Shown here in pieces: positions 1 to 56,697 of a DNA stretch of 64,000 bases. The DNA is taken from positions 44,055 through 108,054 of the forward strand of contig CADAFP010000003.1 in NCBI GenBank assembly GCA_902787185.1, in the 5' to 3' direction. The position numbers and the translations under genes were made by a program. Below the pieces are notes generated by a model, which saw nothing but the letters and a program-made list of their open reading frames with translations, was not told the origin of the DNA and did not search any database. Each line of letters begins with the position of its first letter. The stretch's first letter is position 1. This DNA is from an uncultured Bacteroidales bacterium. Lineage in GTDB: Bacteria > Bacteroidota > Bacteroidia > Bacteroidales > Muribaculaceae.

Positions 1-791
1 TGGGCGTGGGCTTCAAAGTCACGTCGGGCCCCGTGCTTGACAAGCCCGGTGACCTGGCAGGACTGCTGACGTCGCTCGACGAGAACGATGTGCTGTTCAT
101 CGACGAGATTCACCGCCTGAGCCCCATCGTAGAGGAGTACCTCTACAGCGCAATGGAGGACTACCGTATCGACATCATGATTGACAAGGGCCCCGGCGCC
201 CGCTCGGTGCAACTGACGCTTGCCCCGTTCACCCTCATCGGCGCCACCACCCGCAGCGGCCTGCTGACCTCGCCGCTGCGTGCCCGTTTCGGCATCAACT
301 GCCACCTGGAATACTATGACCACAAGGTGCTCGAGGGCATCATCCGCCGTTCAGCCCGCCTGCTGGCCGTTCCCATCGACGACAAAGCCGCCGTGGAGAT
401 TGCCCTGCGCAGCCGTGGCACGCCCCGTATCGCCAACTCGCTGCTGCGCCGCGTGCGCGACTTTGCCCAGGTCAAGGGCAGCGGCCGCATCGACCTCGAC
501 ATCGCTCGCTATGCCCTCGAGGCGCTGAACATCGACAAATACGGCCTTGACGAGATCGACAACAAGATTCTGCTGACCATCATTGACAAGTTTGGTGGCG
601 GTCCCGTGGGCCTGAACACCATCGCCACGGCCATGAACGAGGACGCCGGCACCATCGAGGAGGTCTATGAGCCCTACCTCATCAAGGAAGGCTTCATCAA
701 CCGCACCCCGCGCGGCCGCGAAGCCACCACGCTGGCCTACAATCACCTGAAACGTGAGCGCCCCGGCGAAGTGGGAAGCATTTTTAGTTAA
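1..791 (+). CDS. ruvB: Holliday junction branch migration helicase RuvB (5' end outside window)
   Basis: This is the C-terminal part, about 263 residues, of the RuvB AAA+ ATPase, which forms hexameric rings around DNA and drives branch migration with RuvA. The reading frame is open from base 1, so the Walker A region lies upstream of the window. Counting from the GTG at base 6, Walker B with its DEIH box is at about residues 33-36, the sensor 1 GATTR at 79-83, and the arginine-rich GTPRIAN motif at 138-144. The C-terminal winged helix follows and ends near the PRGR motif typical of RuvB. The TAA stop overlaps the first word of a 7-bp repeat array. The flippase gene follows on the same strand after that array. 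Confidence 0.97.
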
Positions 792-908
792 CAGTTAAAA
801 GTGAATAGTTAACAGTTGGCATCCGCACTCACTTGGTCAACCTCTCACTTTTAACTGTTCACTCTTAATTGTTTACTGTTCACTTTTAACTGTTCACTTT
901 TAACTGAG
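787..908. repeat. 7-bp word inverted array A with GTTGGCATCCGC core
   Basis: The ruvB-flippase spacer consists of 7-bp words. The left arm reads AGTTAAC, AGTTAAA, AGTGAAT, AGTTAAC. The right arm is made of the complementary words (ACTGTTC, ACTTTTA) repeated about nine times. The arms flank a core at 815-841 that starts GTTGGCATCCGC and ends TCAAC. The transcript could fold into a long imperfect hairpin with the core at its tip. The ruvB stop codon is inside the first word. Confidence 0.85.
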
Positions 909-911
909 ATA

Positions 912-2408: not shown

Positions 2409-2420
2409 CAATCTACTGTC

Positions 2421-2439
2421 GCCGTGGCTGAGCCACGGC
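2421..2439 (+). other. Perfect 8-bp hairpin downstream of the flippase
   Basis: GCCGTGGC and GCCACGGC pair around a TGA loop, 12 bases after the flippase stop. No T-run follows, so it may stabilise an mRNA end or act as an attenuator rather than an intrinsic terminator. The small gene starts 52 bases further on. Confidence 0.45.
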
Positions 2440-2491
2440 ACAGGGAACCGAACTGATAGTTTTTGTTTAATAACCATTAATCGTAACCATT

Positions 2492-2662
2492 ATGAAAGAG
2501 CAAGTATTACAAGCCATGCGCGATGCCGGAAAGCCCATGTCGGCTGGTGATGTTACTAAGGTGTTGGGCGCCGACCGCAAGGAAGTCGATAAGGCGTTTG
2601 CCGAGTTGAAAAAGGAGGGTGCCATCGTGTCGCCCGTGCGCTGCAAGTGGGCTCCCGCTTGA
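2492..2662 (+). CDS. Small winged-helix-like DNA-binding protein (56 aa)
   Basis: This 56-residue protein begins MKEQVLQAMRDAGKPMSAGD and ends VSPVRCKWAPA. The pattern is a helix, a turn with a short 'SAGDVTKVLGADRKEVDKAF' second and recognition helix, then KKEGAIVSPVRCKW as a beta wing. That is a minimal winged helix-turn-helix as in small transcriptional regulators. The coding potential is good (regular codon use, clean ATG and TGA), and a strong hairpin follows the stop. The DNA target is unknown. It could be a nucleoid-associated or regulatory protein; the fold assignment is by pattern only. Confidence 0.7.
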   Translation: MKEQVLQAMRDAGKPMSAGDVTKVLGADRKEVDKAFAELKKEGAIVSPVRCKWAPA

Positions 2663-2692
2663 CATCAAACAACACGTCAACCTGTAAACAAA

Positions 2693-2728
2693 GCGCCAGC
2701 GCATTGGGGACAGCCCCTGCGCTGGCGC
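2693..2728 (+). terminator. Strong hairpin after the small wHTH gene
   Basis: An 11-bp perfect stem (GCGCCAGCGCA paired with TGCGCTGGCGC) is extended inward by GGGG/CCCC. It is followed by an imperfect T-rich stretch. It sits between convergent genes and probably ends transcription from the left. Confidence 0.65.
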
Positions 2729-2747
2729 GATTTATGTTAGCCCTCTA

Positions 2748-5610: not shown

Positions 5611-8091
5611 TCACTTGAGGATGATGGCAATCACCTCGTTGATATCACTGATGTTCACAGTACCGTCACCGTTGATGTCACCGACAGCTTTGTAAGTGCC
5701 AGAGAGAATCATATCGATAACCAGGTTAACGTCGGCGATGTTTACGCTACCATCACCATTCACGTCACCCTTCAAGGGTTCAGGATCAACACCACCATGC
5801 TCTTTCACCTTGATGGGGAAGATCTCACGCTCGTTATTGTAAATGGTCAAGAAGCCCCATACGTCGTAGGTCTTGTTGGGGTCAAAGTCGGGCAGTGTGA
5901 GGTTAAACTGGTTGAAGAGCAGGATTTCCTCTTCGTCCTCATCTATCATGATGAACTTCGTAGCCTCGTCGGTAGGAGTAATCTGCAAGTTCTCGATGAA
6001 GAGGTAGGAATGAACGTCGTTCTGGGAAACGTCCTCAATCTTCTTGGTGATAGGCTCTACTTCAGCGGTCTTACCACCCTTCACAAACGTGCTGTCCACG
6101 GGAACCATCTGCTTGTAACCATTGGTCTTGGGATAGAGCGTCCACGTACCGGTAGCACCAATCTTGATGATATCACCATTCTCAAAATGCTCGGTCAATC
6201 TACCGTACACAAGCGTCATCTTGCCGTCAGCGTCCTTGACATACATGCGGCTACCATTCTGATAGATGGCGGTCAGCGGGGTAGTGAACTCACCATAGCC
6301 ACCCTCGGGAAGGTTATAGAGTTCAGCAATGTTCTTCACAGGCGTGGGCACAACTTTGATATCAAACCTGTAAGGCAGCAACTGGTAATTGGTCTTGTAG
6401 GAACCCACGATACCATAAACCCAGCAGAAGTCGTCGCCCTCGGCGGGATAAACGCAGTCAAACCTCTTGTAGTAACCAATGGTGTTACCCTTTTCATCAA
6501 CCAGGTTGGAACCACTGACTTTCACTTTAATCTTGACATACTTGCCCCAATTGTCATGGTTGACCTCATTGAGCGTGGCGATAGTCATGGCAACGGGCTC
6601 ACCGGTATTCTCGATGGCGTTCTCAAAGCCTGCCAGAGGAACTGCACCATTGTTGTCGGTCAACTCAGGCTCCATGTCATAGGTCTTCTTGAGTCCCATA
6701 TAGCCAGCGGGGATGACATCACCCTGCTTGTAGGTCTTACCAACGGTACCATAAACGAGACCAAAACCGGTCTCATCCATCAGATAGAGATACTTGCCAG
6801 ACTGGCCAATCACAGTGGCGTCATAGGTCAGGGTCACTTGGTTTTCCAAGTCGTCGGGCAAATCAGCCAAGTGTCCGAGTCCAAGATTGCCGGGGATGCG
6901 CTTTTTGCACTTGGTGGGCAGCAACTGATAAATGATCGCGTCACCTTTCTTGTAGGTGCCAACGACACCCTCAACGTCGTAGTCGGCGTTCAAATCATTG
7001 GGAGCTGAAACACCCATGTTGCCAAAGTAAACGGGGCACGTGTTACCATCCTGATCGGTCAACGTGTAGTTCTTGCCGTCGGCGTCCAGGCTAATGGTCA
7101 CACCACTCATCTTCACCAATTGGGCAAACCTGTCGTGGCCGACCTCATTGGCAGGAATCTCGGGAATATTAACCGTTACATTACCACTTGCCTCATTAAA
7201 GTTGTTGAGGTACTGCAACTCGGGCTCGCCAGCATAGGTCGTCTTGGTACCATAGAAACCAGCGGGAATGACATCACCCTTGCCGTAGGTCTGACCACAG
7301 TCACCATAGAACAGGGCGCATCCCGTGTTATCCATCACATAGAGGTATCCCTTGTTTTGGGCAGTGGCGGTCACGCTCTTGGTAAACTGAGCGGCAGTGC
7401 CGTCGGCCAAAGCAATGTACTCGGCGATACTATTCACCGGAACGGGAGTGGCAATGATATACTCAGCGCTTACGACATCGCTCACTTCACCATTCAGAGC
7501 CGAAATGGCTTTCAGCGTGGTGGTCTTGTTAATAGCAATGGGGGCCGAGTAGAGCGTCGAGGAGGTTGTGGGATCGTTACCGTCGGTGGTGTAATAGATC
7601 TTAGCACCGCTGGTACCACAAGTGATAGCTACATTGATGGGCTCGTAATAGGTGCGGCCAGGGAGGGAGAAGTTGGGCTTAGCCAAGCCATTCTCGGCAA
7701 CGGTGACAACAATCTTGGTTGCGCGAACCTGCTTGACACCAGCAACGAAGTCGACTGACGGAGCATTGCCTTCCCAAACACCGTCATCCATACCCGCGGG
7801 CTCAGAGAAACCCGAAGCGGGGTTTTCGGAAGTACACGTGAACTCGATCTTGGTGATGTTACCAATCGTAGAGGTGAACGTCGTGACCGAATTCTTTCCG
7901 AAACGGTACTGGGCTGCAGCAAAAGCACCGTAGGAAGTGTGAACCGTTACACCATCAAGGGTCATCTCGTCCTCGGTGGTAACAGAAGGTTGCTGGCCGA
8001 CAGTCTCACCTGGGATAAAAGTGATGACAGTCTCACCCCAAGCTGCAATCGCCAACAAACACATGGTGAATAAAGTAAATAATTTCCTCAT
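5611..8091 (-). CDS. Secreted multidomain protein with chitobiase-type and dockerin-like modules (paralogue 2)
   Basis: This protein has 826 residues from the ATG at 8091. An upstream in-frame TTG is rejected because the signal peptide MRKLFTLFTMCLLAIAAWGE starts here. The domain order matches its neighbour at 2748-5282: N-terminal beta-sandwich, chitobiase-type module (marker YYTTDGNDPTTSS), repeated OB-like domains with 'GDVIPAG' turns, then a complete dockerin-like pair (GDVNGDGSVNIADVNLVIDM and GDINGDGTVNISDINEVIAI). The two genes are a tandem duplication that has since diverged. The role is probably binding or scaffolding at the cell surface; no catalytic residues were recognised. It has its own promoter box at 8152-8159 and terminator at 5547-5583. 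Confidence 0.82.
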   Translation of the reverse strand: MRKLFTLFTMCLLAIAAWGETVITFIPGETVGQQPSVTTEDEMTLDGVTVHTSYGAFAAAQYRFGKNSVTTFTSTIGNITKIEFTCTSENPASGFSEPAGMDDGVWEGNAPSVDFVAGVKQVRATKIVVTVAENGLAKPNFSLPGRTYYEPINVAITCGTSGAKIYYTTDGNDPTTSSTLYSAPIAINKTTTLKAISALNGEVSDVVSAEYIIATPVPVNSIAEYIALADGTAAQFTKSVTATAQNKGYLYVMDNTGCALFYGDCGQTYGKGDVIPAGFYGTKTTYAGEPELQYLNNFNEASGNVTVNIPEIPANEVGHDRFAQLVKMSGVTISLDADGKNYTLTDQDGNTCPVYFGNMGVSAPNDLNADYDVEGVVGTYKKGDAIIYQLLPTKCKKRIPGNLGLGHLADLPDDLENQVTLTYDATVIGQSGKYLYLMDETGFGLVYGTVGKTYKQGDVIPAGYMGLKKTYDMEPELTDNNGAVPLAGFENAIENTGEPVAMTIATLNEVNHDNWGKYVKIKVKVSGSNLVDEKGNTIGYYKRFDCVYPAEGDDFCWVYGIVGSYKTNYQLLPYRFDIKVVPTPVKNIAELYNLPEGGYGEFTTPLTAIYQNGSRMYVKDADGKMTLVYGRLTEHFENGDIIKIGATGTWTLYPKTNGYKQMVPVDSTFVKGGKTAEVEPITKKIEDVSQNDVHSYLFIENLQITPTDEATKFIMIDEDEEEILLFNQFNLTLPDFDPNKTYDVWGFLTIYNNEREIFPIKVKEHGGVDPEPLKGDVNGDGSVNIADVNLVIDMILSGTYKAVGDINGDGTVNISDINEVIAIILK

Positions 8092-8151
8092 TGCAATGAA
8101 AGTTATTAAATGGTTAATAATGACAAGTTCTACAACATCTTTATAATTGGG

Positions 8152-8159
8152 CAAAGTTA
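8152..8159 (-). promoter_or_regulatory. -7 box TAACTTTG with -33 TTG, promoter of the 5611-8091 gene
   Basis: TAACTTTG is preceded, 19 bases upstream on the minus strand, by TTG. This is the Bacteroidota primary-sigma arrangement. The expected leader is about 60 nt. Confidence 0.7.
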
Positions 8160-8274
8160 CTATTATTTTTCCATTCATCAACCATTATGGCGCAAAAAAA
8201 TCCCATAAAAACTCAATTGGAGTTAAAACAAAAAAAACACGGGGTTAAGGGCATCGGTTTAAAAGATTAATGAT

Positions 8275-8282
8275 TACCTTTG
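8275..8282 (+). promoter_or_regulatory. -7 box TACCTTTG, promoter of the CotH-family gene
   Basis: The TACCTTTG match faces the gene at 8516 and would give a leader of about 230 nt, most of it occupied by structured repeats. Together with the box at 8152 it makes the 8092-8515 interval a divergent promoter region. Confidence 0.6.
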
Positions 8283-8308
8283 CAGGTTGTAATTAAATTC
8301 TCAAGTTT

Positions 8309-8475
8309 CTAAAGTGGCTTTGCCCCTTTAGGAAACTTGAAGATTAGGGATTAAAGATTAGGGATAGGCCCATAGGGTCGAAAACCCGCAAACTTTGAAA
8401 AGGTTTTCTTCACTAATCACTCATCACTAATCTTTAATCTTCAAGTTCTGAAGTGCTTAGCACTTTAGAAACTTG
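8309..8475 (+). repeat. 7-bp word inverted array H inside the CotH leader
   Basis: Two hairpins built on CAAGTTTCTAAAG (about 8311-8340 and 8442-8475) flank an inner pair of 7-bp arrays. The left inner array has GATTAGG and GATTAAA words (8341-8365). The right one has ACTAATC and ACTCATC words (8411-8440). The arms are largely complementary, so the whole leader can fold on itself. Confidence 0.75.
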
Positions 8476-8515
8476 AATTAAGTAAAGTCACCAATTTTCA
8501 AAGCTATAGAACATC

Positions 8516-10240
8516 ATGTCATTTTCCGCATCACGATTCATCATGGCCGCTCTCGCCATGACAACCGCATGCGTCGCATGGGCACAAGCCTTCTTCCTTG
8601 ACGGGCACAAAGCAGTACACGACAATCTCAACAACATCTGGCTGTGCAGCGTGCCGCAAGAGGTGTTCGGACACGAGTGGATGCCAGTAGTCACCATCGA
8701 CAGCACCATGACCGATGTCATCATCAACGGCACACAGGTGGCGAACGGTGACCAGGTGCTGCTGAATCAGATTGCAGGAGGCAGGCTATTCCCGTTCATG
8801 GCAAAGGTGGATGGGCGGATCATTGCCGGAAACATCACCTTCACGTGGCTGCCCGTGCTGGAACTGGAAGGTGAATTTGGCAACGAGTATGCGCCCGGAA
8901 CGGTTTCGCTCAATGCCCCCGATGGCAGTGGCAAGAGTGACATGATGGCCAAGCTCAAGTGGCGCGGCGGTGTCACCAACACCGGCGACAAGCACAAGCG
9001 CAACTATCACATCAAGTTTGTTGACAGCATCGGCGAGAAGAAGAACCGCCGCTTGCTGGACATGCGCAAGGACAACCACTGGAAACTTGATGCCGGACAG
9101 ATCGACCCGCTGCGCATACGCAACCGCGTGTGCAGCGACCTATGGCTCGACATGTCGCGCGACCCCTGGTTCAAGGCCCTCGACTCTACTGCTGTCAACG
9201 GCTCGCATGGCCGCGTCACCGAAGTCATCCTCAACGGTAAGTACCACGGCATCTACGGCCTCATCGAGCCCGTGGACCGCAAACAGTTGGGGCTGGTCAA
9301 GCATGACACGGTGGAAAACGTGTTTCATGGCCAAGAATGGGTGTCAAAACTGTGGGCTCCAACGTATTACCTGCCGCGTTACAACAACAGCAGCAACATG
9401 TGGAACCAGAACGAGGTGAATTACCCTGAATTTGAAGACGTTCATCCCACCGACTGGAGCACCCTGTATAAAGCGTTCGACTTTGCGAGACGCGTCGATG
9501 CGGCCGATGACTGGCAAACCTTGAGCGACTCGCTGGATTACTACTTTGACACGCCGGTGCTGGAAGATTATTTCATCCTTCTTGTCACCATTCAGGCCCT
9601 TGACAACGAGACCAAGAACATCTACTACAGCCTGTATGACAAGGCCACGGGCGACAAACGCCTCACCGTCACCCCTTGGGACCTGGACGTGTCGCTCGGC
9701 GCCAAGACCCTCACAGGGCTAACCGACGCTATGGTATCTCCCGAGCGGGAACTCAACTGGGTGACCAACCTGTATTTGATCGACATGTTCAACCACTCGG
9801 CGCCTCATCGCCAGCACATTATCGACCGCTACTGGCAGTTGAGGCAGACGTGGCTCAACACCGACAACCTGGTGGCCCGTTTCCAAGCCGCCGTCGATGA
9901 ACTGGAGAACAGCGGAGCGGCAGCACGCGAAGAAGCCCGATGGAGCCACGACAGTGACATCAATGGCCAGACGCTGGACATCAGTGCCGAGATGAACCGC
10001 GTGGAGCAATGGATCAGGCGACATATGGCTTACCTCGACGAGAACGTTTTCGTCCGCGCGGCGGGCATCCCGGGAGATGCCGACGGTGATGGGGAGGTCA
10101 GTATCGCCGACATCACCACCATCCTCGACTATATGCTTTCAGGCAAGCCCATCAACGAGCGGCAAGCCGACGTGGATAACGATGGCAGCATCAACATCGG
10201 GGATATCGTCATGCTCGTGGACATCATCCTCAACAAGTAG
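8516..10240 (+). CDS. CotH-family secreted protein (possible protein kinase fold) with dockerin-like C terminus
   Basis: This 574-residue protein has a signal peptide (MSFSASRFIMAALAMTTACV...WA). Residues of about 120-430 match the CotH family: 'AKLKWRGGVTN', 'KRNYHIKF', 'DNHWKLDA...RIRNR', 'VILNGKYHGIYGLIEPVDR' and a late 'TVTPWDLDVSLG'. CotH proteins have an atypical kinase fold and phosphorylate secreted proteins in spore formers; in Bacteroidota the substrate is unknown. The C terminus carries a dockerin-like pair (GDADGDGEVSIADITTILDY, then VDNDGSINIGDIVMLVDIIL). The long structured leader upstream could affect expression. No terminator was seen before the recA promoter. Confidence 0.85.
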   Translation: MSFSASRFIMAALAMTTACVAWAQAFFLDGHKAVHDNLNNIWLCSVPQEVFGHEWMPVVTIDSTMTDVIINGTQVANGDQVLLNQIAGGRLFPFMAKVDGRIIAGNITFTWLPVLELEGEFGNEYAPGTVSLNAPDGSGKSDMMAKLKWRGGVTNTGDKHKRNYHIKFVDSIGEKKNRRLLDMRKDNHWKLDAGQIDPLRIRNRVCSDLWLDMSRDPWFKALDSTAVNGSHGRVTEVILNGKYHGIYGLIEPVDRKQLGLVKHDTVENVFHGQEWVSKLWAPTYYLPRYNNSSNMWNQNEVNYPEFEDVHPTDWSTLYKAFDFARRVDAADDWQTLSDSLDYYFDTPVLEDYFILLVTIQALDNETKNIYYSLYDKATGDKRLTVTPWDLDVSLGAKTLTGLTDAMVSPERELNWVTNLYLIDMFNHSAPHRQHIIDRYWQLRQTWLNTDNLVARFQAAVDELENSGAAAREEARWSHDSDINGQTLDISAEMNRVEQWIRRHMAYLDENVFVRAAGIPGDADGDGEVSIADITTILDYMLSGKPINERQADVDNDGSINIGDIVMLVDIILNK

Positions 10241-11470: not shown

Positions 11471-11491
11471 GTGTTCCAGTGCCTGTGGTAT

Positions 11492-11531
11492 CTATAGCAT
11501 CTATAGTCTCTATAGCTTCTATAGCGGCTAT
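11492..11531. repeat. 9-bp word array K between recA and metK
   Basis: Four 9-bp words starting CTATAG (CTATAGCAT, CTATAGTCT, CTATAGCTT, CTATAGCGG) and a partial fifth stand just past the metK stop. The same word recurs in array L at 32471-32514. Confidence 0.85.
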
Positions 11532-11536: not shown

Positions 11537-12805
11537 TCACGAGAGGCCGAAGGCTGCACGCAGCATTTCGGTGCGGTTGAGCTTCTCCCACGTGAACAGC
11601 TCGACCTCGACTTCCCTAGTCTGGTTGTAGAGGGATTCAAACTTTTTCACCTTCAACTCATACTTGCGGCCCATGTGGCCATAGGCGGCCGTCTCGGTAT
11701 AGATGGGATTGAGCAGTTTCAAGTCCCTGATGATGGCGGCAGGACGCAGGTCGAACATTTCCTTGAGGATGTCGGCAATCTCGGCGTCGCTCTTGTTCAC
11801 ATGGCTGGTGCCGTAGGTGTTGATGTAGAAGCTGACGGGTTCGGCACGGCCGATGGCATAGGCCACCTGCACCAATACCTCGTCGGCAATGCCTGCGGCA
11901 ACCACATTTTTAGCGATGTGACGGCAGGCATAGGCGGCACTGCGGTCCACCTTGCTGGGATCCTTGCCCGAGAAGGCGCCACCGCCGTGAGCGCCGCGAC
12001 CGCCGTAGGTGTCCACGATGATTTTGCGGCCCGTGAGACCCGTGTCACCATGAGGTCCACCGATGACAAACTTGCCCGTGGGATTGACAAACTCCTCGGT
12101 CTTGCCGTCATACAGCGCCTTGATGTCGTCGCTGTAGTGGGCCAGAGTCCTGGGAATCAGTATCTCGTGAACGTCGCGGGCGATGCGCTTCTGGTCCACA
12201 TCCTCGTCGTGCTGGGTGCTCACCACGATGGTGTGGATGTGCACGGGACGGCGGGTGTCGCCGTCATACTCGACCGTCACCTGAGCCTTGGCGTCGGGAC
12301 GCAGGTAAGGCATCAGTTCCAGGTGGTTGTGACGGATGTCGGCCAGTTCACGCATGAGGGCATGCGCCAAATCAAGCGTCAACGGCATGTAGTTGGGCGT
12401 CTCGTTGCAGGCGTAGCCAAACATCATGCCCTGGTCGCCAGCACCTTGGTCCTCGCGGTTATCCTCGGCGTTGTCAACACCCTGCTTGATGTCGCCACTC
12501 TGCTCATGGACGCTGTTGAGGATGCCGCATGAACTGCCGTCAAACTGATATTCACTCTTGGTGTAACCAATCTTGTTGATCACCTCGCGCGCGGTGCGCT
12601 GCAGGTCGATATAAACGTTGGTGGTCACCTCGCCCGAGATAACTACCTGGCCCGTGGTCACCAGCGTCTCGCATGCCACGTGGGCATGGGGGTCAAAAGC
12701 CAAAAACTTGTCAAGGATGGCGTCGCTAATCTGGTCAGCGACCTTGTCGGGGTGCCCTTCAGACACGCTCTCGGACGTGAATAGATAATTGTTCTTACTG
12801 TTCAT
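11537..12805 (-). CDS. metK: S-adenosylmethionine synthetase MetK
   Basis: This 422-residue enzyme makes S-adenosylmethionine from methionine and ATP. The three characteristic regions are visible: [20 protein letters not shown] near the N terminus, [12 protein letters not shown] at about 120-131 (methionine/ATP site), and the glycine-rich [20 protein letters not shown] (P-loop-like) at about 270-289. It is slightly longer than the E. coli enzyme (384), as in other Bacteroidota. The 5' leader of about 145 nt carries a candidate SAM-II aptamer at 12878-12924, so feedback control by its own product is likely. Confidence 0.98.
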
Positions 12806-12877
12806 TGTTACAAAAAACCGTTATTTTTGTGGAACATGAACGCTAAAAAAGAATCAAGAATAAGACTGTTGATGATT

Positions 12878-12924
12878 GCATTTTAGCATTTTTTCAAGTG
12901 GTTGCAAGCAGCCCAAATTCCACT
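12878..12924 (-). promoter_or_regulatory. Candidate SAM-II riboswitch aptamer upstream of metK
   Basis: Read on the minus strand, a 5-bp stem (AGUGG at 12924-12920 with CCACU at 12901-12897) encloses AAUUUGGGCUGCUUGCAA. It is followed by UUGAAAAAAUGCUAAAAUGC. The order stem, AUUU, UUGCA, stem, UGA-AAA, GCUAAAA matches the SAM-II pseudoknot, in which AUUU pairs with AAAU downstream and GCUAAAA lines the ligand pocket. The second pseudoknot helix is short (GC with GC). It starts about 25 nt after the predicted transcription start and ends 72 nt before the metK ATG. The assignment is by eye. Confidence 0.62.
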
Positions 12925-12955
12925 GTTAATAATATGTTGTTTCAAAAATTGGCTG

Positions 12956-15765: not shown

Positions 15766-16089
15766 ATGGCAAACGAAAATCAGAACCAACAGCAGATTAA
15801 GATTGAAATTCCTAAGGAAGAGTTGCAGGGCCGCTATGCCAACATGGCAATGATTGCCCATGGTCCCAATGATTTCTTCATCGATATGATCCTGCGCGGC
15901 CCCAACATGCCGCAGGCCCGCGTTCAGAGCCGCATCATCATGGCCCCGCAGCATGCCAAGGAGCTGATGCTCGCCCTCCAGGATAACATCCACCGCTATG
16001 AGAGCAACTTCGGCGAAATCAAGATCAACCGTCCCGCTGGTGCCAACAGCAACATTATGGACTTCCCCCTGCCCAAGGGACAGGCGTAA
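15766..16089 (+). CDS. DUF3467 family protein
   Basis: This 107-residue acidic soluble protein begins MANENQNQQQ and contains 'YANMAMIAHGPNDFFIDMIL', 'QSRIIMAPQHAKELMLAL' and 'NIHRYESNFGEI', which match the small DUF3467 family. Members are conserved in many Bacteroidota without a defined role. It starts 35 bases after the lipoprotein gene and is probably part of the same transcript. Its TAA is directly followed by a 7-bp repeat array. Confidence 0.85.
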   Translation: MANENQNQQQIKIEIPKEELQGRYANMAMIAHGPNDFFIDMILRGPNMPQARVQSRIIMAPQHAKELMLALQDNIHRYESNFGEIKINRPAGANSNIMDFPLPKGQA

Positions 16090-16150
16090 ACAGTTAACAG
16101 TTGACAGTTAACAGTTAATAGTTAATAGTTGACATCAAATTTTTTTTGAC
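16089..16150 (+). repeat. 7-bp word half-array G before cysS
   Basis: Words of the CAGTTAA type (CAGTTAA, CAGTTGA, TAGTTAA) repeat about six times directly after the DUF3467 stop. They end in GTTGACATC, a T-run and GAC, which resembles the core of array A. There is no right arm; cysS starts ten bases later. Confidence 0.75.
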
Positions 16151-17640: not shown

Positions 17641-17749
17641 GTGATAAGATAATAGATAAGAGATAATAGATAATGGTTGAAAATCAGTAGAATACCATCC
17701 GTTATCTATTATCTATTATCTTTTATCTATTATCTATTATCTTTTATCT
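17641..17749. repeat. 7-bp word inverted array B between cysS and the glycosyltransferase
   Basis: The left arm has AATAGAT and AAGAGAT words (17641-17674). The right arm has the complementary ATCTATT and ATCTTTT words about seven times (17698-17747). The unique centre runs from GGTTGAAAATC to ACCATCCG. The right arm ends directly at the next start codon. Confidence 0.9.
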
Positions 17750-21271: not shown

Positions 21272-21275
21272 TTAT

Positions 21276-21310
21276 TTAGGCGTTAGGCTTTAGTTGTTAG
21301 GCTTTAGTTT
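21276..21310. repeat. 7-bp word array I between sufD and sufS
   Basis: Five perfect-period words occur: TTAGGCG, TTAGGCT, TTAGTTG, TTAGGCT, TTAGTTT. The array lies inside the suf operon and so would be transcribed. Confidence 0.85.
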
Positions 21311-21319
21311 GGCCTATTG

Positions 21320-23434: not shown

Positions 23435-23441
23435 ATCTTGG

Positions 23442-23508
23442 TTTTCAGTTGTCAGTTATTTGTTGTCAGCAACTATTATCTAATATCTGATATCTATTAT
23501 CTAAAAAT
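23442..23508. repeat. 7-bp word array J between sufB and sufC
   Basis: TTTTCAG, TTGTCAG, TTATTTG, TTGTCAG and CAACTAT are followed by TATCTAA, TATCTGA, TATCTAT, TATCTAA. The second word family is the one used in arrays B and D. The array lies within the suf operon. Confidence 0.85.
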
Positions 23509-31865: not shown

Positions 31866-31985
31866 CAATTAGGAATGAGGAATGAGAAATTAGAAATTAG
31901 AAATTAGGAGTTAGGAATGAGGAGTTAGGAGTTAGCCACTCAATATCTGTTAACTATTCACTGTTCACTGTTCACTGTTCACTGT
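31866..31985. repeat. 7-bp word array E between ispF and the acyltransferase
   Basis: Ten words of the ATTAGGA/GTTAGGA type (31867-31936) meet a second array of TGTTCAC words (about 31950-31985) at a centre near 31931-31954. The second array runs into ispF: the final residues and TGA stop of IspF are encoded by it. Confidence 0.88.
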
Positions 31986-32460
31986 TCCCTGTTATCAGCG
32001 CTACGGCATAGGCGGCAATGCCCTCGCCACGGCCTGTGTAGCCTAATTTCTCGGTGGTGGTCGCCTTGATAGACACCTGGTCTGGATTGCAGCCCATGCA
32101 AGCCGCCAGTTCCTGCTGCATGGCAGGGATGTGGGGATTGAGTTTGGGCTGCTCGGCACAGATGGTGATGTCACAGTTACCCAAGCGGTAACCCTTGCTG
32201 TCGAGCAGCTCCATCACATGGCGCAGCAACAGGCGGCTATCGATGCCCTTGTAGCGGGGGTTGGTGTCGGGGAAGTGGTAGCCGATGTCACGCAGTGCGG
32301 CGGCTCCCAACAGGGCATCGCACAGTGCATGGATGGCCACATCGGCATCGCTGTGCCCCAGCAGGCCCTTTTCCCAGGGAATATTGACACCGCCCAGCCA
32401 GAGCTCGCGGCCCTCGACCAGGCGATGAACGTCAAATCCCATTCCTATGCGCATCATCAT
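31972..32460 (-). CDS. ispF: 2-C-methyl-D-erythritol 2,4-cyclodiphosphate synthase IspF
   Basis: This 162-residue enzyme forms the cyclodiphosphate of the non-mevalonate isoprenoid pathway. 'MGFDVHRL' gives the metal ligands D10 and H12. '[19 protein letters not shown]' and '[10 protein letters not shown]' form the substrate pocket, and '[20 protein letters not shown]' the CDP site. The last four residues, NSEQ, and the stop are spelled by the neighbouring 7-bp array, so the tail was probably created by repeat growth. The start is one of three consecutive ATGs. Confidence 0.97.
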
Positions 32461-32470: not shown

Positions 32471-32514
32471 CTATCTAAATCCTATAGCTTCTATAATTCC
32501 TATAGCTTCTATCG
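32471..32514. repeat. 9-bp word array L between porV and ispF
   Basis: CTATAGCTT, CTATAATTC and CTATAGCTT follow each other, with partial words on each side. The word is the same as in array K at 11492. Confidence 0.85.
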
Positions 32515-33779: not shown

Positions 33780-33886
33780 TAGTCCGTAGTCGTCAGTCCT
33801 TAGTCCTTAGTCGTTAGTCCCTAGTCCTTAGTCCTTAGTCCTTAGTCGTTAGTCCAACTGTTAACTGTTCACTGTTCACTGTTAAA
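33780..33886. repeat. 7-bp word array F between the C69 peptidase and porV
   Basis: About ten TAGTCCT/TAGTCGT words (33780-33856) are followed by four ACTGTTA/ACTGTTC words (33857-33884). The TAA stop of the C69 peptidase gene lies in the last word. Confidence 0.9.
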
Positions 33887-35994: not shown

Positions 35995-38598
35995 TTACTT
36001 CACATAGTACTTCTTACCGTTGTGGATGTAGATGCCACGCTCGGTGGGAGCAGCAACACGGCGACCGTCGATGGTGTACCATGCGCCATTGTCCTCGGTG
36101 CCAATGGTCAACTCGTTAACAGCTGACGGATTCTCAGCGTAGATCTCATACTGCCATACGATAATAGGCTCATCCAGACCATAGTAGTACTCACCCGAGT
36201 CGTCAACGTAGAAGACGATGAGGTACTTGCCTACAGCACTGGGAGCACCAGGCAGCAGCACGGGATTGGCGGGATCACCGGTGATGTCATAATAAGTGAT
36301 GGTGTAGTCACCACTGCCCTCGGGAAGGGTTGCGGTTGCACCATAGGTCTTACCCTCTTCAAACTTGTTGCGGGCCTCGGGCAAGTCGAGTACATACTCG
36401 CAAGGACGGCGGTCAATGGTGAATTCACCGTACTTGGTGTTCTCGATGCCATTGAAGTAGTCACCCTCGGTTACCTCAACGAATACCTCATAGGTACCGG
36501 GCTCGGTGGGAGCATCGGTTGAAGCAACACCAGTCTCGTCAACGTAGGTTACAATCACGTCACCGTCACCATTATAGTTAACGGTTGCAGCATGTTCGTT
36601 ACCGTCATATACGCAGTCCTCGGGAACGATTACAACAAGTTCAGCCTGCTTCTTGCTGATGGTGAACTCACCGTATTTGGTGTTCTCGATGCCATAGTAG
36701 TGATCAGTCTCGGCTACAGCAACGTAAACCTCATAGGTGCCGGGCTCAACGGGAGCCTCGGTCGAAATATTACCCTCGGCATCCTTGTAGGTTACAGTCA
36801 CCTCACCGTCGCCATCAACCACGGTCACGGTTGCGGCATGCTCGTTACCATCATAGATGCAGTCCTCGGGAACGTCCACATCAATATCAGTCTGCCTCTT
36901 GTCGATGGTGAACGAGCCGTAGCTGGCGTTCTCGATGCCATCAGTCGTCTCGCCATCGGTTACCTCAACAAATACCTCATAGGTGCCGGGCTCAACGGGA
37001 GCGTCGGTTGAAACATTACCCTCGCTGTCCTTGTAAGTGATAATCACGGTACCGTCACCGTCACAGGTTGCGGTTGCGGGATGCTCATTACCGTCATATA
37101 CACAATCCTCAGGAACCTGTACATTAAGTCCAGCCTGGCGCCTTACGATTGAGAACTCAATGGTATTGACACCGATGGTGCCCATATCGTAATCACCATA
37201 GATGCTGAAGTCATAGGTGCCGGGCTCGGTGTACTCAAACGGATAGTCGAATACGCCACCAACACTTACCACGAAGGACTTGGGTGTGCCATCGTAATAA
37301 TGAGTCTCAGGATCGACGGTCAGGGGGATAGTGCGGATATCTTCCCACTCCTGGTCCAATTCGGTCAGGTATGTGTCGTTACCCTGATTATCGACGATAC
37401 GAAGCTTCAAGGTGTGGATGTCGGCAACGTCGGGATTGAAGTTCAAGTTGAACGGCAGGTCGAATTCCGAATTCGGAGTCAGTTCGCCAGGGATGGCGGT
37501 CCATTCACCGGTACCACGGTCACCATCTACCATATACTCCATGTGGCCAGTCCAGTCAAACGGGTGCTTATAGTAACCCCAAACATGAGCGGGATGGTCA
37601 GCAGCAAGGTCATTCCATGCCTCGGTGTTATAAACCTCAACATGATATTCAGCCTCGGGATCGGGCTCAGGCTCGTCAATATCAATTTCACTGACGCTCA
37701 CCAAGAAAGACAACTCGACAGATTCGCCGGCTGAGAGGGTTATATTCTTCCAGCAGAAACCCATACCGCTGTCGTAGCTGCCGCCTTCTTCCTTGTAGTG
37801 TTCATCTTCTTCAGTGCCAGCTACCCATTGGTTACCGGTATAGACATCGGGCACATTGTTATAATCACCTACGATATTTGCAGCCTTGTAGTTGTTAGTG
37901 TACTGACCAAACCACCAATCATCGACAGGAGTCACACCTGAACCTGCACCGAAAATTGCGGTGAACACGGGAACTTTTTCACCAGGTTGGGCATCTTCAT
38001 CTCTTTTGTACTTCATGTCCAAACCGTAAACCTTGCCCTGATCATTGCGCAGGCAGTAAACGGCAGCACTGTCATTATCACCAATCATGATGTCGGCATA
38101 CACACCCAGAGATACGGTCCTTGATGTGAGCCAGGCGTTATTGGTCAACGTATAGACAATCCTGGCTGCGTATTCGCCCGCACGTTCCACGCGCGCAGAG
38201 AAATTCACACTATTGCTGGAAGTTCCAGTCTGGCAATTACAGATGACAGGGCTAGTGAGGATGCCATCGACAGACATAGCAGCGATAAAGCCAGCACCGG
38301 GATTAGAATAGATACCATCAGATTCATTGTCGAGTTTGGCATAGGTTGACGAGTAATATTTACCTTCAACTTCGCCAATAATGCTGAGGCCGTTAACGTA
38401 GCCGACAGGAATACCGTGTTGCTCTTGAGTACTGTAATAGAGGTGGTTAGGATTGTCATACGTCCCCAATGCTATAAAGTTAGGGGGAAGAGCAGGATAA
38501 ATAGCCGACCTCGCAGGGCCCTTAGCGAGCTGTGCGCTCGCTTGCATGCCGCATAAGGCGGCAGCCATCACAATTAAGAAAAATGTAATCTTCTTCAT
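35995..38598 (-). CDS. Secreted T9SS cargo protein with MBG-type repeats
   Basis: The ATG at 38598 gives 867 residues with a signal peptide (MKKITFFLIVMAAALCGMQA). The N-terminal half (about 25-310) is a beta-rich domain of unknown kind. Around 440-800 lie three near-identical repeats of about 82 residues, each opening VPEDC(V/I)YDGNEH, of the MBG/Ig-like surface type. The DNA copies are also very similar, so the number may change by recombination. The end 'WYTIDGRRVAAPTERGIYIH', closing in KKYYVK, is a T9SS type A-like sorting domain. It is probably anchored or released at the surface as an adhesin or binding protein. Confidence 0.83.
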   Translation of the reverse strand: MKKITFFLIVMAAALCGMQASAQLAKGPARSAIYPALPPNFIALGTYDNPNHLYYSTQEQHGIPVGYVNGLSIIGEVEGKYYSSTYAKLDNESDGIYSNPGAGFIAAMSVDGILTSPVICNCQTGTSSNSVNFSARVERAGEYAARIVYTLTNNAWLTSRTVSLGVYADIMIGDNDSAAVYCLRNDQGKVYGLDMKYKRDEDAQPGEKVPVFTAIFGAGSGVTPVDDWWFGQYTNNYKAANIVGDYNNVPDVYTGNQWVAGTEEDEHYKEEGGSYDSGMGFCWKNITLSAGESVELSFLVSVSEIDIDEPEPDPEAEYHVEVYNTEAWNDLAADHPAHVWGYYKHPFDWTGHMEYMVDGDRGTGEWTAIPGELTPNSEFDLPFNLNFNPDVADIHTLKLRIVDNQGNDTYLTELDQEWEDIRTIPLTVDPETHYYDGTPKSFVVSVGGVFDYPFEYTEPGTYDFSIYGDYDMGTIGVNTIEFSIVRRQAGLNVQVPEDCVYDGNEHPATATCDGDGTVIITYKDSEGNVSTDAPVEPGTYEVFVEVTDGETTDGIENASYGSFTIDKRQTDIDVDVPEDCIYDGNEHAATVTVVDGDGEVTVTYKDAEGNISTEAPVEPGTYEVYVAVAETDHYYGIENTKYGEFTISKKQAELVVIVPEDCVYDGNEHAATVNYNGDGDVIVTYVDETGVASTDAPTEPGTYEVFVEVTEGDYFNGIENTKYGEFTIDRRPCEYVLDLPEARNKFEEGKTYGATATLPEGSGDYTITYYDITGDPANPVLLPGAPSAVGKYLIVFYVDDSGEYYYGLDEPIIVWQYEIYAENPSAVNELTIGTEDNGAWYTIDGRRVAAPTERGIYIHNGKKYYVK

Positions 38599-48488: not shown

Positions 48489-48574
48489 TTAGCTACTAGT
48501 TTCCAGTCCCTAGTTTCCAGTTCTTTGACAGCGGATGCCAACTAGGGACTAGAAACTAAGGACTAGGGACTACT
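48489..48574. repeat. 7-bp word inverted array C with GTTGGCATCCGC core
   Basis: The left arm words are CTAGTTT and CCAGTCC; the right arm words ACTAGGG, ACTAGAA, ACTAAGG. They flank a core at 48520-48542 that on the minus strand reads GTTGGCATCCGCTGTC and ends GAAC. Its first 12 bases are identical to the core of array A. Confidence 0.88.
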
Positions 48575-50504: not shown

Positions 50505-50835
50505 GAACACGAATGGCCAGGAATTCCCACGAATATCCATTAATAAAAAATTAATTGATGACCATTCATGGACATTAATGGACATTCATGTTTCAAAAAA
50601 ATACTCTATGGATATTTAAGAACACGAATGGCCATGAATTCCCACAAATATCCATTAATAAAAAATTAATTTATGACCATTCATGGACATTGATGAACAT
50701 TCATGTTTCAAAAAAATGCTCTATGGCTATTCCTGAACACGAATGGCCATGAATCCCCACGAATATCCATTAAAAAAAAATTAATTTATGACCATTCATG
50801 GACATTGATGAACATTCATGTTTCAAAAAAAATCC
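50505..50835. repeat. Three tandem copies of a 115-bp hairpin unit
   Basis: Units start at 50505, 50620 and 50735, each with GAACACGAATGGCCA on the left and words such as CATGGACATT, GATGAACATT on the right. Within a unit the period is about 10 bp and the two halves are imperfect complements, so each unit is a hairpin. A partial copy may precede it at 50460. No gene is present. Confidence 0.88.
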
Positions 50836-51056: not shown

Positions 51057-51153
51057 CTTTACCTAAAACACACACTCACATCAAATGATTACGGGAGCAA
51101 CCGCCATTGTCATCAGGCTTGTTCCCGTTGTTTTTTATTTAATTATTTCTTTA

Positions 51154-51410
51154 GATTTCTCGTGCGATAGCACGATCATTATTGAGGGCACAGACTACAA
51201 TCAGACGACATTTATTATCGCCCTGCGGGCGAGAAATCAAAAATGGCTTAAAAAATTTTTCTTTGATTTCTCGTGCGACAGCACGATCATTGTTGAGGGC
51301 ACAGACTACAATCAGACGACATTTATTATCGCCCTGCGGGCGAGAAATCAAAAAACGACTTAAGAAAATTTTTCTTTGATTTCTCGTGCGACAGCACGAT
51401 CATTATTGAG
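51154..51410. repeat. Tandem palindromic repeats (85-bp units, GATTTCTCG ends)
   Basis: Units at 51154-51238 and 51265-51349 start GATTTCTCG and end with the complement CGAGAAATC. A third, truncated unit (51378-51410) abuts the rnhB stop. Each unit has a hairpin with TCGTGC / GCACGA at its left end and CGCCC / GGGCG at its right end. A related single hairpin lies at 53483. The 51057-51413 interval contains nothing else. Confidence 0.85.
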
Positions 51411-51413
51411 GTC

Positions 51414-53008: not shown

Positions 53009-53016
53009 CAAAGGTA
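53009..53016 (-). promoter_or_regulatory. -7 box TACCTTTG, promoter of the polyprenyl synthase-rnhB operon
   Basis: TACCTTTG ends seven bases before the ATG at 53002, so transcription should start at or within a few bases of the start codon. Confidence 0.65.
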
Positions 53017-53541: not shown

Positions 53542-53605
53542 GGTGGCTTTGGGGGTTGGGAAGGGGTCGAGGGAGAGAATTTTTGGCGGGTGGGGAAAAA
53601 ATGAT

Positions 53606-53613
53606 TAACTTTG
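53606..53613 (+). promoter_or_regulatory. -7 box TAACTTTG, polA promoter
   Basis: The box is 25 bases before the polA ATG. Confidence 0.7.
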
Positions 53614-53637
53614 AACCCTTAATCAAACTGACCTGAT

Positions 53638-56496
53638 ATGGAAAACTCAAAGAAACTGCTGTTACTTGACGCATACGCCCTTATCTTCAGGGCTTTCTAT
53701 GCGATGATTCGCAATCCGCGCGTCACCTCGACGGGCATCGACACCTCGGCGGTGTTCGGTTTTGTCAACACCCTGCAGGACCTGCTCAAACGCGAGCAGC
53801 CCTCACACATCGCCGTGTGCTTTGACCCGCCAGGAGGCAAAACCTTCCGCCACGAGAGCTACGAACCCTATAAGGCCAACCGCGACAAGACGCCCGAGGG
53901 CATCCTCGCTGCCGTGCCCTACATCAAACGCATCCTGCAGGCTTACCGTATCCCCATCTTTGAGGTTGAGGGCTTTGAGGCCGACGATGTTATCGGCACC
54001 CTCTCCCATCAGGCCGAGCAGCAGGGATTCTTCACCTATATGGTCACCGGCGACAAGGATTTTGGCCAACTGGTGACGCCCAACATCAAGGTCTATGACC
54101 CGCTCAAGAAGGAAATCCTGGGTGTCGAAGAGGTTAACGCCAAATACGGCATCAACGTTCCCACCCAACTGATTGACATCCTGGGACTCATGGGCGACAG
54201 CGCCGACAACATCCCCGGCTGCCCCGGCGTGGGCCCCAAAACCGCCGAGAAACTCATCCAACAATTTGGCTCCATCGAGAACCTGCTGGAGCATACCGAC
54301 GAACTCAAGGGCGCTCAGCAGCAAAAGGTGCGTGACAATGCCGAGCTGATACGCATGTCCAAATGGCTGGCGACCATCATCACCGACGTGCCCATCACCC
54401 TTGAGGCCGACGCCTTGAAGCGCAAACCCACCGACATGGAGGCCCTGCGCACCATTTTCAACGAATTGGAATTCCGCACGCTCACCAGTCGACTCATCGA
54501 CGGCGGCGAGGCCAATGCGGGCCTTGACGACATACCCGATGTGGAAACGCCACAGCCTGCGCCTACCGCCGCAGCGAGCGTTCCGCCTGTAGAGAAACAG
54601 GCTCCCGCGTCACCCGCCCGCAAGCCCGCATCGGGGCAGCAGCTCTCACTGTTTGACATCGAAGAGCCCGCCCAAGAGGCCAAAGCCGAGACGCCCGCTT
54701 ACAAATCCATCAATGATATCGCCCATGACTATCGACTGATCACGTCACCCATTGAGGTGGCGACTGTGGTGAGCGACCTGCAGGACAAGCCGCGCGTCGC
54801 CGTGAGCATGGCGGGCACTGGAGACAACGCGATGCGCTTCAACATCATGAGCATCGCCCTGTGCGCCGAGCCCCACAAGGCCGTTTGCATCAAGTGTGAC
54901 AACCGGCAAGACATGCTGGCGGCACTGGCTCCGCTATTTGCAGGCAAAGCATGCATCGTCGGCAGTGATATCAAGCGGCTGATGGTTGTCTTGGATCAAC
55001 ACCGCATCCCGTTCACGGCGCCCTATTACGACACGGCGATTGCCCACTACCTGCTACAACCCGAGCGGGGACACAGCACCGCCGAGGTGGCCTACGAACT
55101 GCTCCATTACACAGCCATCACCCTCGAGAGCCTGTTAGGTCCCAAGGGGCGCAACCAGCTCAAGCCGCAACAACTGTCGCCCGAAGCCATCAAGCGTTGG
55201 GCATGCGAGAATGCCGATCTCACCCTGCAACTCCCCGACGTGCTTGACAACGCCTTGAAGGAACAGGGCCTGCATCAGCTGTTGACCGACATCGAATTGC
55301 CGCTGGTACAGGTGCTCGCAAGCATGGAACTCGCCGGAGCACGCATCGACGTCAAGGCGCTCAAAGACTATTCTGTCACCTTGACCGAGCAGATGAACCG
55401 CCTTGAACTGGAGTGCCACCAACTGGCAGGTGTGCCCTTTAACACGGCATCACCAGCGCAGGTGGGAGAAGTGCTTTTTGACCACCTGAAAATCGACCCT
55501 AAGGCGAAGAAAACCAAGACGGGCCAATACAGCACCACCGAGGACATCCTGCTCAAGTTGCGCGACCGCCACCCGCTTATCGATAAGATTTTGGAACTGA
55601 GGGGAATACGCAAGCTCCTATCCACCTATGTCAATGCCCTGCCAGCGCTCATCAATCCGCAGACGGGGCGCATCCACACGACCTATAACCAGACGGTCAC
55701 CGCCACGGGACGCCTGTCATCGACCAATCCCAACCTGCAGAACATCCCCGTGCGCACCGACGACGGCAAGGAAATACGCCGCGCCTTCATCCCCGCCGAG
55801 GGCAATGTGTTCTTCAGCGCCGACTATTCCCAGATAGAATTGCGTCTGGTGGCCGACATGAGCCACGACAAGACAATGCTCGACGCCTTTGCCCACGACC
55901 ACGACATCCATGCCATCACCGCGGCACGCATCTACCACAAGCCACTGGAACAGGTCACCAGCGACGAACGCCGCAAGGCAAAAACCGCCAACTTCGGCAT
56001 CCTGTACGGCATCAGCGCCTTCGGCCTCGCCCAGCGGCTGAACATTCCCCGCGATGAGGCCAAAATGCTCATCGACGGCTACTACACCACTTTCCCGCAG
56101 GTGCGCGACTACATCGACCGCTGCATCGCCCAAGCGCGAGAGAAGGGCTATGTGACAACGCTCTACGGACGCCGCCGTATGCTGCCCGACATCAATTCAC
56201 GCAATGCCGTGGTGAGGGGATTCAGCGAGCGCAACGCCATCAACGCGCCCATCCAGGGCACCGCAGCCGACGTCATCAAACTCGCCATGGTGCGCATCTT
56301 CAAGCGGTTCCAGGACGAGGATATCCAGTCCAAAATGATTCTTCAGGTGCATGACGAACTCAATTTTGACGTCATTCCCAGCGAACTGGAAACGGTGCAG
56401 CGCATCGTCGTCGAGGAAATGGAAGGCGTCTATAAGGGAGACGTGCGCCTCACGGCCTCCCACGGTACCGCCAGCAACTGGCTCGACGCACACTAA
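53638..56496 (+). CDS. polA: DNA polymerase I
   Basis: This 952-residue three-domain polymerase has the 5'-3' nuclease with 'LLLLDAYALIFRAFYAM', 'VEGFEADDVIGTL' and 'GDSADNIPGCPGVGPKTA' (to about 290). A proline/alanine-rich linker follows at 290-355, then a 3'-5' exonuclease-like domain (about 365-560). The polymerase has motif A (DYSQIELRL), motif B (KAKTANFGILYGISAFG) and motif C (QVHDELNFD). In the middle domain the four proofreading carboxylates appear replaced: S390, A392, a leucine at the D424 position and N at the D501 position of E. coli. It therefore should lack proofreading but keep gap filling. Confidence 0.96.
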   Translation: MENSKKLLLLDAYALIFRAFYAMIRNPRVTSTGIDTSAVFGFVNTLQDLLKREQPSHIAVCFDPPGGKTFRHESYEPYKANRDKTPEGILAAVPYIKRILQAYRIPIFEVEGFEADDVIGTLSHQAEQQGFFTYMVTGDKDFGQLVTPNIKVYDPLKKEILGVEEVNAKYGINVPTQLIDILGLMGDSADNIPGCPGVGPKTAEKLIQQFGSIENLLEHTDELKGAQQQKVRDNAELIRMSKWLATIITDVPITLEADALKRKPTDMEALRTIFNELEFRTLTSRLIDGGEANAGLDDIPDVETPQPAPTAAASVPPVEKQAPASPARKPASGQQLSLFDIEEPAQEAKAETPAYKSINDIAHDYRLITSPIEVATVVSDLQDKPRVAVSMAGTGDNAMRFNIMSIALCAEPHKAVCIKCDNRQDMLAALAPLFAGKACIVGSDIKRLMVVLDQHRIPFTAPYYDTAIAHYLLQPERGHSTAEVAYELLHYTAITLESLLGPKGRNQLKPQQLSPEAIKRWACENADLTLQLPDVLDNALKEQGLHQLLTDIELPLVQVLASMELAGARIDVKALKDYSVTLTEQMNRLELECHQLAGVPFNTASPAQVGEVLFDHLKIDPKAKKTKTGQYSTTEDILLKLRDRHPLIDKILELRGIRKLLSTYVNALPALINPQTGRIHTTYNQTVTATGRLSSTNPNLQNIPVRTDDGKEIRRAFIPAEGNVFFSADYSQIELRLVADMSHDKTMLDAFAHDHDIHAITAARIYHKPLEQVTSDERRKAKTANFGILYGISAFGLAQRLNIPRDEAKMLIDGYYTTFPQVRDYIDRCIAQAREKGYVTTLYGRRRMLPDINSRNAVVRGFSERNAINAPIQGTAADVIKLAMVRIFKRFQDEDIQSKMILQVHDELNFDVIPSELETVQRIVVEEMEGVYKGDVRLTASHGTASNWLDAH

Positions 56497-56506
56497 TTTT
56501 TAATTA

Positions 56507-56697
56507 GGAATGAGGAATTAGAAATTAGGAGTTAGAAGTTAGGAGTTAGGAGTTAGGAGTTAGAAGTTGGCAGCGGGATTCGCTATCAACTGTCAATATC
56601 TGATATCTGATATCTCTTATCTAATATCTAATATCTCTTATCTGATATCTAATATCTGATATCTATTATCTGATATCTGATATCTATTATCTAAATC
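56507..56697. repeat. 7-bp word double array D between polA and the 56700 gene
   Basis: Ten ATTAGGA/GTTAGGA words (56508-56569) meet a core at 56566-56590 (GTTGGCAGCGGGATTCGC... ending ATCAAC). About 14 TATCTGA/TATCTAA/TATCTAT words follow (56597-56696), up to the stop codon of the opposite gene. It is the longest array in the window. Confidence 0.92.

Follow-up and report, generated by a model that had tools for sequence, protein, structure and literature searches.

What are the arrays of 7-bp words that fill one intergenic spacer after another in this 64,000-nucleotide stretch of an uncultured Bacteroidales bacterium (Muribaculaceae; GenBank assembly GCA_902787185.1, contig CADAFP010000003.1, positions 44,055 to 108,054; hereafter the window), and what process could have written them? 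The initial annotation, made from the letters alone, described ten spacers as tandem degenerate 7-bp words of constant period, with words that differ between loci and families that recur. We find that the arrays are real and enriched in intergenic DNA. Nearly all the words run away from the neighbouring gene, oppositely oriented arrays in one spacer meet head-to-head, and a core recurs between some of the arms. The outward polarity, the head-to-head pairing, the core shared by the words, the recurring hairpin core and the turnover of words at orthologous spacers all go beyond what was first noticed.

The initial annotation had proposed a tandem-repeat search with period 7 in this and related genomes, a comparison with shuffled spacers and one of intergenic with coding positions; all of these were carried out. 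Tandem Repeats Finder (TRF) and a lag-matching scan of the window returned period-7 arrays at every named place. The lag-7 score was matched by none of 1000 dinucleotide shuffles in nine of the ten spacers and by five of 1000 in the shortest (21272-21319, 48 nt). The margin was narrow for spacer 8065-8542, with a score of 18 against a shuffle maximum of 17. Among the 38 window spacers of at least 30 nt, tested with 300 shuffles each, p<0.01 at lag 7 was reached by ten, precisely those already named, so the list is complete and correct at that threshold. When lags 2-15 were compared, only lag 14 approached the signal at 7. The period is constant, and word families do recur between loci. Arrays sit even within the suf operon as described, in the sufB-sufC and sufD-sufS spacers (genes assigned by Pfam). 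That they lie mainly between co-directional genes is true of most, but convergent and divergent spacers carry them too. Among spacers of 30-600 nt in the eight sampled genus genomes other than G043 and G104, arrays are present in 87 of 732 co-directional, 13 of 143 convergent and 7 of 131 divergent ones. Position between co-directional genes suggests that such spacers are transcribed. No Rfam family matched any window array at the gathering score, and the only matches in the window were to tRNA and a SAM-II riboswitch.

The window belongs to a 3.22-Mb draft genome of 102 contigs. By CysS, its nearest named relatives are uncultured rumen and gut metagenome-assembled genomes labelled Prevotellaceae (97 and 96% identity), followed by Candidatus Sodaliphilus fimicaballi (86%) and Muribaculaceae bacteria. 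The genus is probably the Candidatus Sodaliphilus group of Muribaculaceae, judging from this similarity, and 101 of its genomes were available for pattern searches. In 463 kb of the window's own genome, 45 period-7 arrays fall in 63.9 kb of intergenic DNA against 2 in 398.9 kb of coding DNA, and one Markov-1 shuffle of the intergenic DNA gave none. Genes here were called by a simple codon-usage caller, and gene starts are therefore approximate. About 4.2% of the sampled intergenic DNA lies in period-7 arrays, compared with 0 of 26 kb in G043. Samples of eight of ten genus genomes hold intergenic period-7 arrays, with none in G043 (200 kb) or G104 (20 kb sampled). The pattern (TTAGNNN)x4 is present in 81 of the 101 genus genomes, at 0 to 469 matches per genome, so that the arrays expected in related strains are indeed there. 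Across the order it was found as well, in 104 of the 295 genomes sampled, which represent 81 of the 184 genera; here and in the head-to-head and tail-to-tail searches below, match counts include overlapping windows of one array. The own genome has 469 pattern matches and 32 matches to a reversed control, which is an unclean null, since certain genomes carry arrays built on a GATT core. Four genomes of the order (G350, G356, G252 and G292) have many reversed-control matches, and these are heptad arrays of the GATT type. Stretches of G289 that scored at every period are probably runs of N, and spacers containing N were excluded from the polarity, pairing and inter-arm core counts.

Read outward from the flanking gene, the words have a common core, TTAG or TTAA, with variants TGAR, ATAA and TCAG. 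Across 570 units, slot 1 is T at 0.89, slot 2 T at 0.86, slot 3 A at 0.97 and slot 4 G at 0.82 or A at 0.18, and slots 5-7 are variable; the alignment was anchored on the core and is hence biased towards it. The words are thus variable between loci, as claimed, but they are not unrelated, because most are TTAR/TGAR variants when read outward. They also differ by side, with TTAGGAG after genes and TCAGTTT and TTAAGTT (read outward) before them. For the 136 arrays that lie no more than 25 nt from the end of a gene, scoring TTAG versus CTAA gives 97 outward, 6 inward and 33 undecided, the 33 ties having been judged by eye only. Outward exceeds inward 72 to 3 after stops and 25 to 3 before starts, and five of the six inward arrays lie in spacers shorter than 40 nt that one array nearly fills. 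Under a looser rule that assigns lone arrays by spacer half, 88 are outward, 19 inward and 5 undecided. Single-change variants are strand-asymmetric as well, with 32 outward T-to-G changes (19 after genes and 13 seen as sense A-to-C before genes) versus 3 outward A-to-C changes.

Eight of the ten named window spacers carry two oppositely oriented arrays, and all eight pairs are head-to-head (seven from a low-threshold scan, the pair at 56507 from two TRF rows). Polarity switches in 33 of the 34 spacers with at least two arrays, and the switch is head-to-head in 33 of 33 (26 co-directional, 7 convergent). Searched across the 295 genomes of the order, the head-to-head pattern gives 266 matches in 14 genomes; without the own genome, 138 matches remain in 13 of the 294 other Bacteroidales genomes. 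The tail-to-tail pattern gives 5 matches in 3 of the same 295, and both forms occur in two of the 14 head-to-head genomes (tail-to-tail, 3 in G224 and 1 in G339). The reversed control of this search, which corresponds to head-to-head GATT arms, was matched in several genomes, G252 and G356 not among them. No known repeat-making process obviously explains the outward head-to-head layout.

A short core recurs where some of these arms meet. Of 35 pairs, 10 have both GGCATC and ATCCGC in the inter-arm segment; these pairs come from four species and differ in their arm words. GGCATC occurs without ATCCGC in one pair, and a second segment (GGCGAYAGTAATC type) in three. In the own genome sample TTGGC[AG]TCCGC has 14 intergenic occurrences and none in coding DNA, while the shorter GGC[AG]TCCGC also lies within window genes (17435, 51956). 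The own genome contains the sequence TTGGCATCCGCCAA 18 times, and 24 of the 101 genus genomes have it, compared with a single match to its reversed control across all 101. The spacer at 8309 is unlike the others, its arms being part of a palindromic element of ~190 bp that has hairpins at its ends and head-to-head GATTAGG arms inside. BLASTN against the sampled 463 kb found two further copies of this element, 92-93% identical over 196-200 bp. Between co-directional genes, 13 of 16 spacers with paired arms have a predicted folding z<-2. Spacers of G088 and G006 contain a recurrent perfect hairpin between genes, GAGACGCAAAATTTTGCGTCTC.

Sister species (SufC 97-100%, CysS 94-100% identical) differ in words at the same spacers. 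The loci compared were sufB-sufC (30), sufD-sufS (25 of 30 readable), DUF3467-cysS (30) and cysS-glycosyltransferase (30), and the orthologous spacers hold different heptad words, 9-nt arrays, hairpins or almost no spacer at all. Period 7 is seen in 18 of 30 DUF3467-cysS spacers, period 9 in 3 and neither in 9; for cysS-glycosyltransferase the numbers are 6, 2 and 22. At an orthologous site with a shared centre, the stop codon lies 24, 31 or 38 nt from that centre. The distance is 3 modulo 7 in six of six species, indicating that length has changed there by whole heptads. Words at this site have been replaced while the ends stayed. Period 9 is the smaller class (8 intergenic and 4 coding arrays in the 463 kb) and appears at orthologous spacers as TCTAGANNN and CTATAGNNN. 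Its unit combines a palindromic 6-bp core, CTATAG or TCTAGA, with three variable bases, and in some species a period-9 array replaces the heptads of others (DUF3467-cysS and cysS spacers).

We lean, tentatively, towards reading the arrays as slippage-driven inverted heptanucleotide satellite elements that are extragenic and in some cases built on a dispersed hairpin core. In each unit a degenerate 7-bp word with outward consensus TTARNNN would form a single array or a pair; paired arrays are inverted and head-to-head, and in some pairs a small hairpin core (GGCGGATGCC / GGCATCCGCC) lies at the centre. Whole heptads would be gained and lost by replication slippage or unequal recombination, words would be replaced rapidly between species, and arms and core may spread together as an element. 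Arrays would gather in spacers because selection removes those inside genes. Transcripts would make stem-loops, perhaps as tolerated or mildly useful by-products. In favour of this reading are the intergenic excess, the whole-heptad length steps, the differing words at spacers of sister species, the uniform head-to-head pairing, the recurring core, the three copies of the ~190-bp element and the predicted folding of paired arms.

Several observations weigh against this reading. Slippage by itself yields no polarity. Neither recurring centre is present in 21 of the 35 pairs. As for a target-site duplication, a clean 7-bp flanking direct repeat, judged by eye, occurs at one of the three copies of the ~190-bp element, the other two being without. 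Arms from the same spacer pair no better than arms exchanged among spacers within one genome (20 pairs, p 0.11). Arm pairing may therefore follow from opposite polarity plus a shared core, as swapped partners pair nearly equally, and selected RNA arm pairing is unsupported even though paired arms fold. The words are also only weakly genome-specific, at 0.198 vs 0.171 after stops (reached by 157 of 1000 permutations) and 0.302 vs 0.189 before starts (14 of 1000). A genome-specific lexicon, expected beforehand, thus turned out weak, and there is no clear sign that words spread in concert through a genome. Finally, the number of arrays relates weakly to that of repetitive extragenic palindromic (REP)-type transposases (Y1_Tnp; Spearman 0.20, p 0.04, kinship uncorrected), which are found in 92 of the 101 genus genomes. 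Given this weak relation, a transposase was set aside as the cause.

The next explanation to consider, which we find rather unlikely, takes the arrays for plain long simple-sequence repeats: polymerase slippage would make them, no element would be involved, and selection on mRNA leaders (A-rich, G-poor) and trailers would set their orientation. It agrees with the 7-nt length steps at an orthologous spacer, with words that differ by gene side and with the less strict polarity of lone arrays. Array-free spacers also lean mildly to sense CTAA before starts (326 TTAG vs 220 CTAA on the outward strand). After stops, however, array-free spacers show no TTAG preference (209 vs 274 CTAA), precisely where arrays are outward 72:3. 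Nor does the explanation sit well with co-directional pairs, since in 7 of 26 the second arm is inverted even though over 60 nt separate it from the following start, or with a core that recurs between differing arms.

Improbable, in our view, is that the arrays are cis-regulatory or protective sites, whether tandem stop codons, RNA-binding sites or 3'-end hairpins. Of the heptads after stop codons, 97% between co-directional genes (n 390) and 100% between convergent genes (n 55) hold a sense stop, and 80% and 78% hold an antisense stop; 27 arrays favour sense stops and 3 antisense. Single-change variants there keep the sense stop 29 vs 5 (20.2 kept expected). Hairpins replace arrays at some orthologous sites, and paired arms are predicted to fold. 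Yet the antisense stop is likewise kept after stops, 34 vs 7 (23.2 kept expected), whereas before starts the antisense stop is kept 21 vs 1 and the sense stop 9 vs 8. Words free of sense stops (TCAGTTT) are found after genes. On these grounds stop-codon arrays were rejected. Stop-seeding was rejected too. An earlier register excess (36 of 85) vanishes in 54 separately selected arrays that begin after the stop, which are spread over the seven phases as 10, 10, 4, 8, 10, 8 and 4; 25 of those 85 start within the gene, whose stop they can therefore supply. As for hairpins, the arms are not matched for pairing, and 66 single-armed spacers fold like 46 sampled array-free ones (mean z -2.0 vs -1.9).

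The remaining explanation, that both DNA ends of an opened spacer gain heptads outward from the genes and then fuse, seems to us very doubtful. The route would be template switching onto other arrays or telomere-like repeat addition, and the layout matches what a telomere fusion leaves, two 3' ends having grown towards one another and been joined. Such extension would account for outward polarity on both sides regardless of gene direction, for independent words in the two arms, for arrays abutting gene ends and for direct arm-to-arm junctions, for example at 33855. But Ku is absent from 101 of 101 genus genomes (the control was detected in B. subtilis), and end joining was discarded for this reason. 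Decay shows no gradient from gene end to centre (p 0.23, 0.35 and 0.72 at three length cut-offs), and growth from the centre was discarded as well. The recurring core is not predicted, and no candidate enzyme is named. Polarity-fixed, telomere-fashion repeat addition at both 3' ends, giving head-to-head (TTARNNN)n-(NNNYTAA)n spacers, has little probability.

REP sequences and bacterial interspersed mosaic elements (BIME) are dispersed extragenic palindromes with inverted partners and Y1 transposases; the present arrays differ in having no fixed palindrome, arms made of heptad arrays and a weak relation to Y1_Tnp copy number. Heptanucleotide repeats themselves are already known in cyanobacteria, Beggiatoaceae and a few Bacteroidetes, and Mrazek (2007) reportedly dealt with heptanucleotide long simple sequence repeats (LSSR). 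Paludibacter propionicigenes, one such host, belongs to the order Bacteroidales. Searches limited to open-access papers turned up no account of heptad arrays for Sodaliphilus or Muribaculaceae and no head-to-head rule. The initial remark that no description was known for this group must be qualified, as TAACTGA direct repeats are reported in Beggiatoaceae, Cyanobacteria and five Bacteroidetes including P. propionicigenes, and were proposed as RNA-binding sites (MacGregor 2015, PMC4679880). In the sections of that paper covered here, the repeats are likewise intergenic 7-nt arrays at gene ends, with related 7-mers interleaved and indels in 7-nt increments between related strains (PMC4679880). 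The sets are mostly forward and just 5' of starts, with single cases reversed beside an upstream stop (PMC4679880). By our reading TAACTGA read outward is TCAGTTA, in keeping with the outward polarity found here. Thirteen sets do not agree for the upstream gene, whose end they overlap while lying forward to the following gene (PMC4679880). That system uses one fixed word whereas many words are used here, and those sections contain no head-to-head pairing rule. Exact TAACTGA pairs number 0 in samples of 13 genomes, and one copy with a single mismatch lies in the window.

The likeness to cyanobacterial repeats suggested at the outset proves apt. The LSSR and short tandemly repeated repetitive (STRR) sequences of cyanobacteria and Xanthomonas, so far as the consulted part of the source describes them, share period 7, intergenic excess and variable copy number (Rehm 2015, PMC4692102). 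The present arrays have tandem 7-nt units above chance, intergenic excess and whole-unit copy variation (at one spacer). Words in LSSR/STRR are G-rich with possible quadruplexes, in contrast to the TTAR core, outward polarity and inverted pairs seen here, and one inverted case is given for Xanthomonas (PMC4692102). BrickBuilt, a miniature inverted-repeat transposable element (MITE) of Porphyromonas gingivalis, is likewise an intergenic Bacteroidales repeat with tandem units and inverted ends; as portrayed in the portion of its description used here, it holds fixed-sequence 23-nt units inside the MITE, whereas here changing 7-nt units build the inverted arms (PMC4596501). In 150 kb of a Trichormus plasmid only two strong period-7 arrays turned up, both CAATTCG, sense and just after a stop codon, a number too small for comparison.

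Table 1. Heptad arms, inter-arm cores and period-9 arrays in the window (scan, low-threshold scan)
Position	Strand	Feature	Evidence
786..817	+	Heptad arm AGTTAAC/AGTGAAT, outward from ruvB stop, begins within final codons	TRF, scan
818..826	+	Core GGCATCCGC, inter-arm	
840..905	-	Second heptad arm, inverted, outward from start of gene at 912	TRF, scan
8286..8479	.	~190-bp palindromic element	BLASTN
8342..8365	+	Heptad arm GATTAGG within ~190-bp element	Weak, score 9
8410..8444	-	Inverted heptad arm TCACTAA/TAATCTT within ~190-bp element	TRF, scan
11490-11525		Period-9 array	
16086..16130	+	Single heptad arm AGTTAAC/AGTTAAT, 3' of DUF3467 gene	TRF, scan
17647..17674	+	Heptad arm AGATAAT, 3' of cysS	TRF, scan
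17697..17749	-	Inverted heptad arm TTATCTA, ahead of glycosyltransferase gene	TRF, scan
21276..21307	+	Heptad arm TTAGGCN/TTAGTTG, outward from sufS start (sufD-sufS), weakest of ten	TRF, shuffles, scan
23441..23464	+	Short heptad arm TCAGTTN, outward from sufC start (sufB-sufC)	TRF, scan
23473..23503	-	Heptad arm AGATAAT/AGATATC, outward from sufB stop	TRF, scan
31867..31935	+	Heptad arm AATTAGG/AATGAGG, outward from acyltransferase gene start	TRF, scan
31944..31993	-	Heptad arm AGTGAAC, outward from ispF-type (YgbB) gene, extends into gene end	TRF, scan
32476-32512		Period-9 array	
33780..33854	+	Heptad arm TTAGTCC, pair's second arm, ~90 nt from porV-type start	TRF, scan
33856..33885	-	Heptad arm AGTGAAC/AGTTAAC, outward from C69 peptidase stop	TRF, scan
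48490..48522	+	Heptad arm CTAGTTT/CCAGTCC, outward from NIF3-type gene start	Weak, score 8
48531..48539	+	Core GCGGATGCC, inter-arm	
48541..48572	-	Heptad arm CCTTAGT, outward from class II (D, K, N type) tRNA synthetase stop	TRF, scan
56504..56568	+	Heptad arm TTAGGAG, outward from polA stop	TRF
56595..56698	-	Heptad arm AGATATC/AGATAAT, outward from DUF3843 gene stop	TRF

Other features of the window stand apart from the heptads. The SAM-II riboswitch (Rfam RF01726, 46.1 bits) lies at 12873-12929 on the minus strand, upstream of the gene at 11537-12805. Longer tandem repeats were found by TRF at 50505-50831, 51141-51411 and 57516-57679, with units of 115, 111 and 75 bp, and a 246-bp unit is repeated three times at 36416-37137 within a large gene (35995-38598).

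Heptanucleotide repeats are scattered among bacteria, with no consensus on their origin or function. A genus of 101 genomes lets their birth, re-wording and loss be traced at orthologous spacers. Any model is tightly constrained by the outward head-to-head polarity, which would come neither from plain slippage nor from arrays of stop codons or RNA-binding sites on the sense strand. If that polarity comes from how the repeats are written, the arrays would reveal a bacterial route to new intergenic DNA. If the writing is by repeat addition, it would be an undescribed way in which Bacteroidales write intergenic DNA, one that the heptamers of cyanobacteria and Beggiatoaceae may share.

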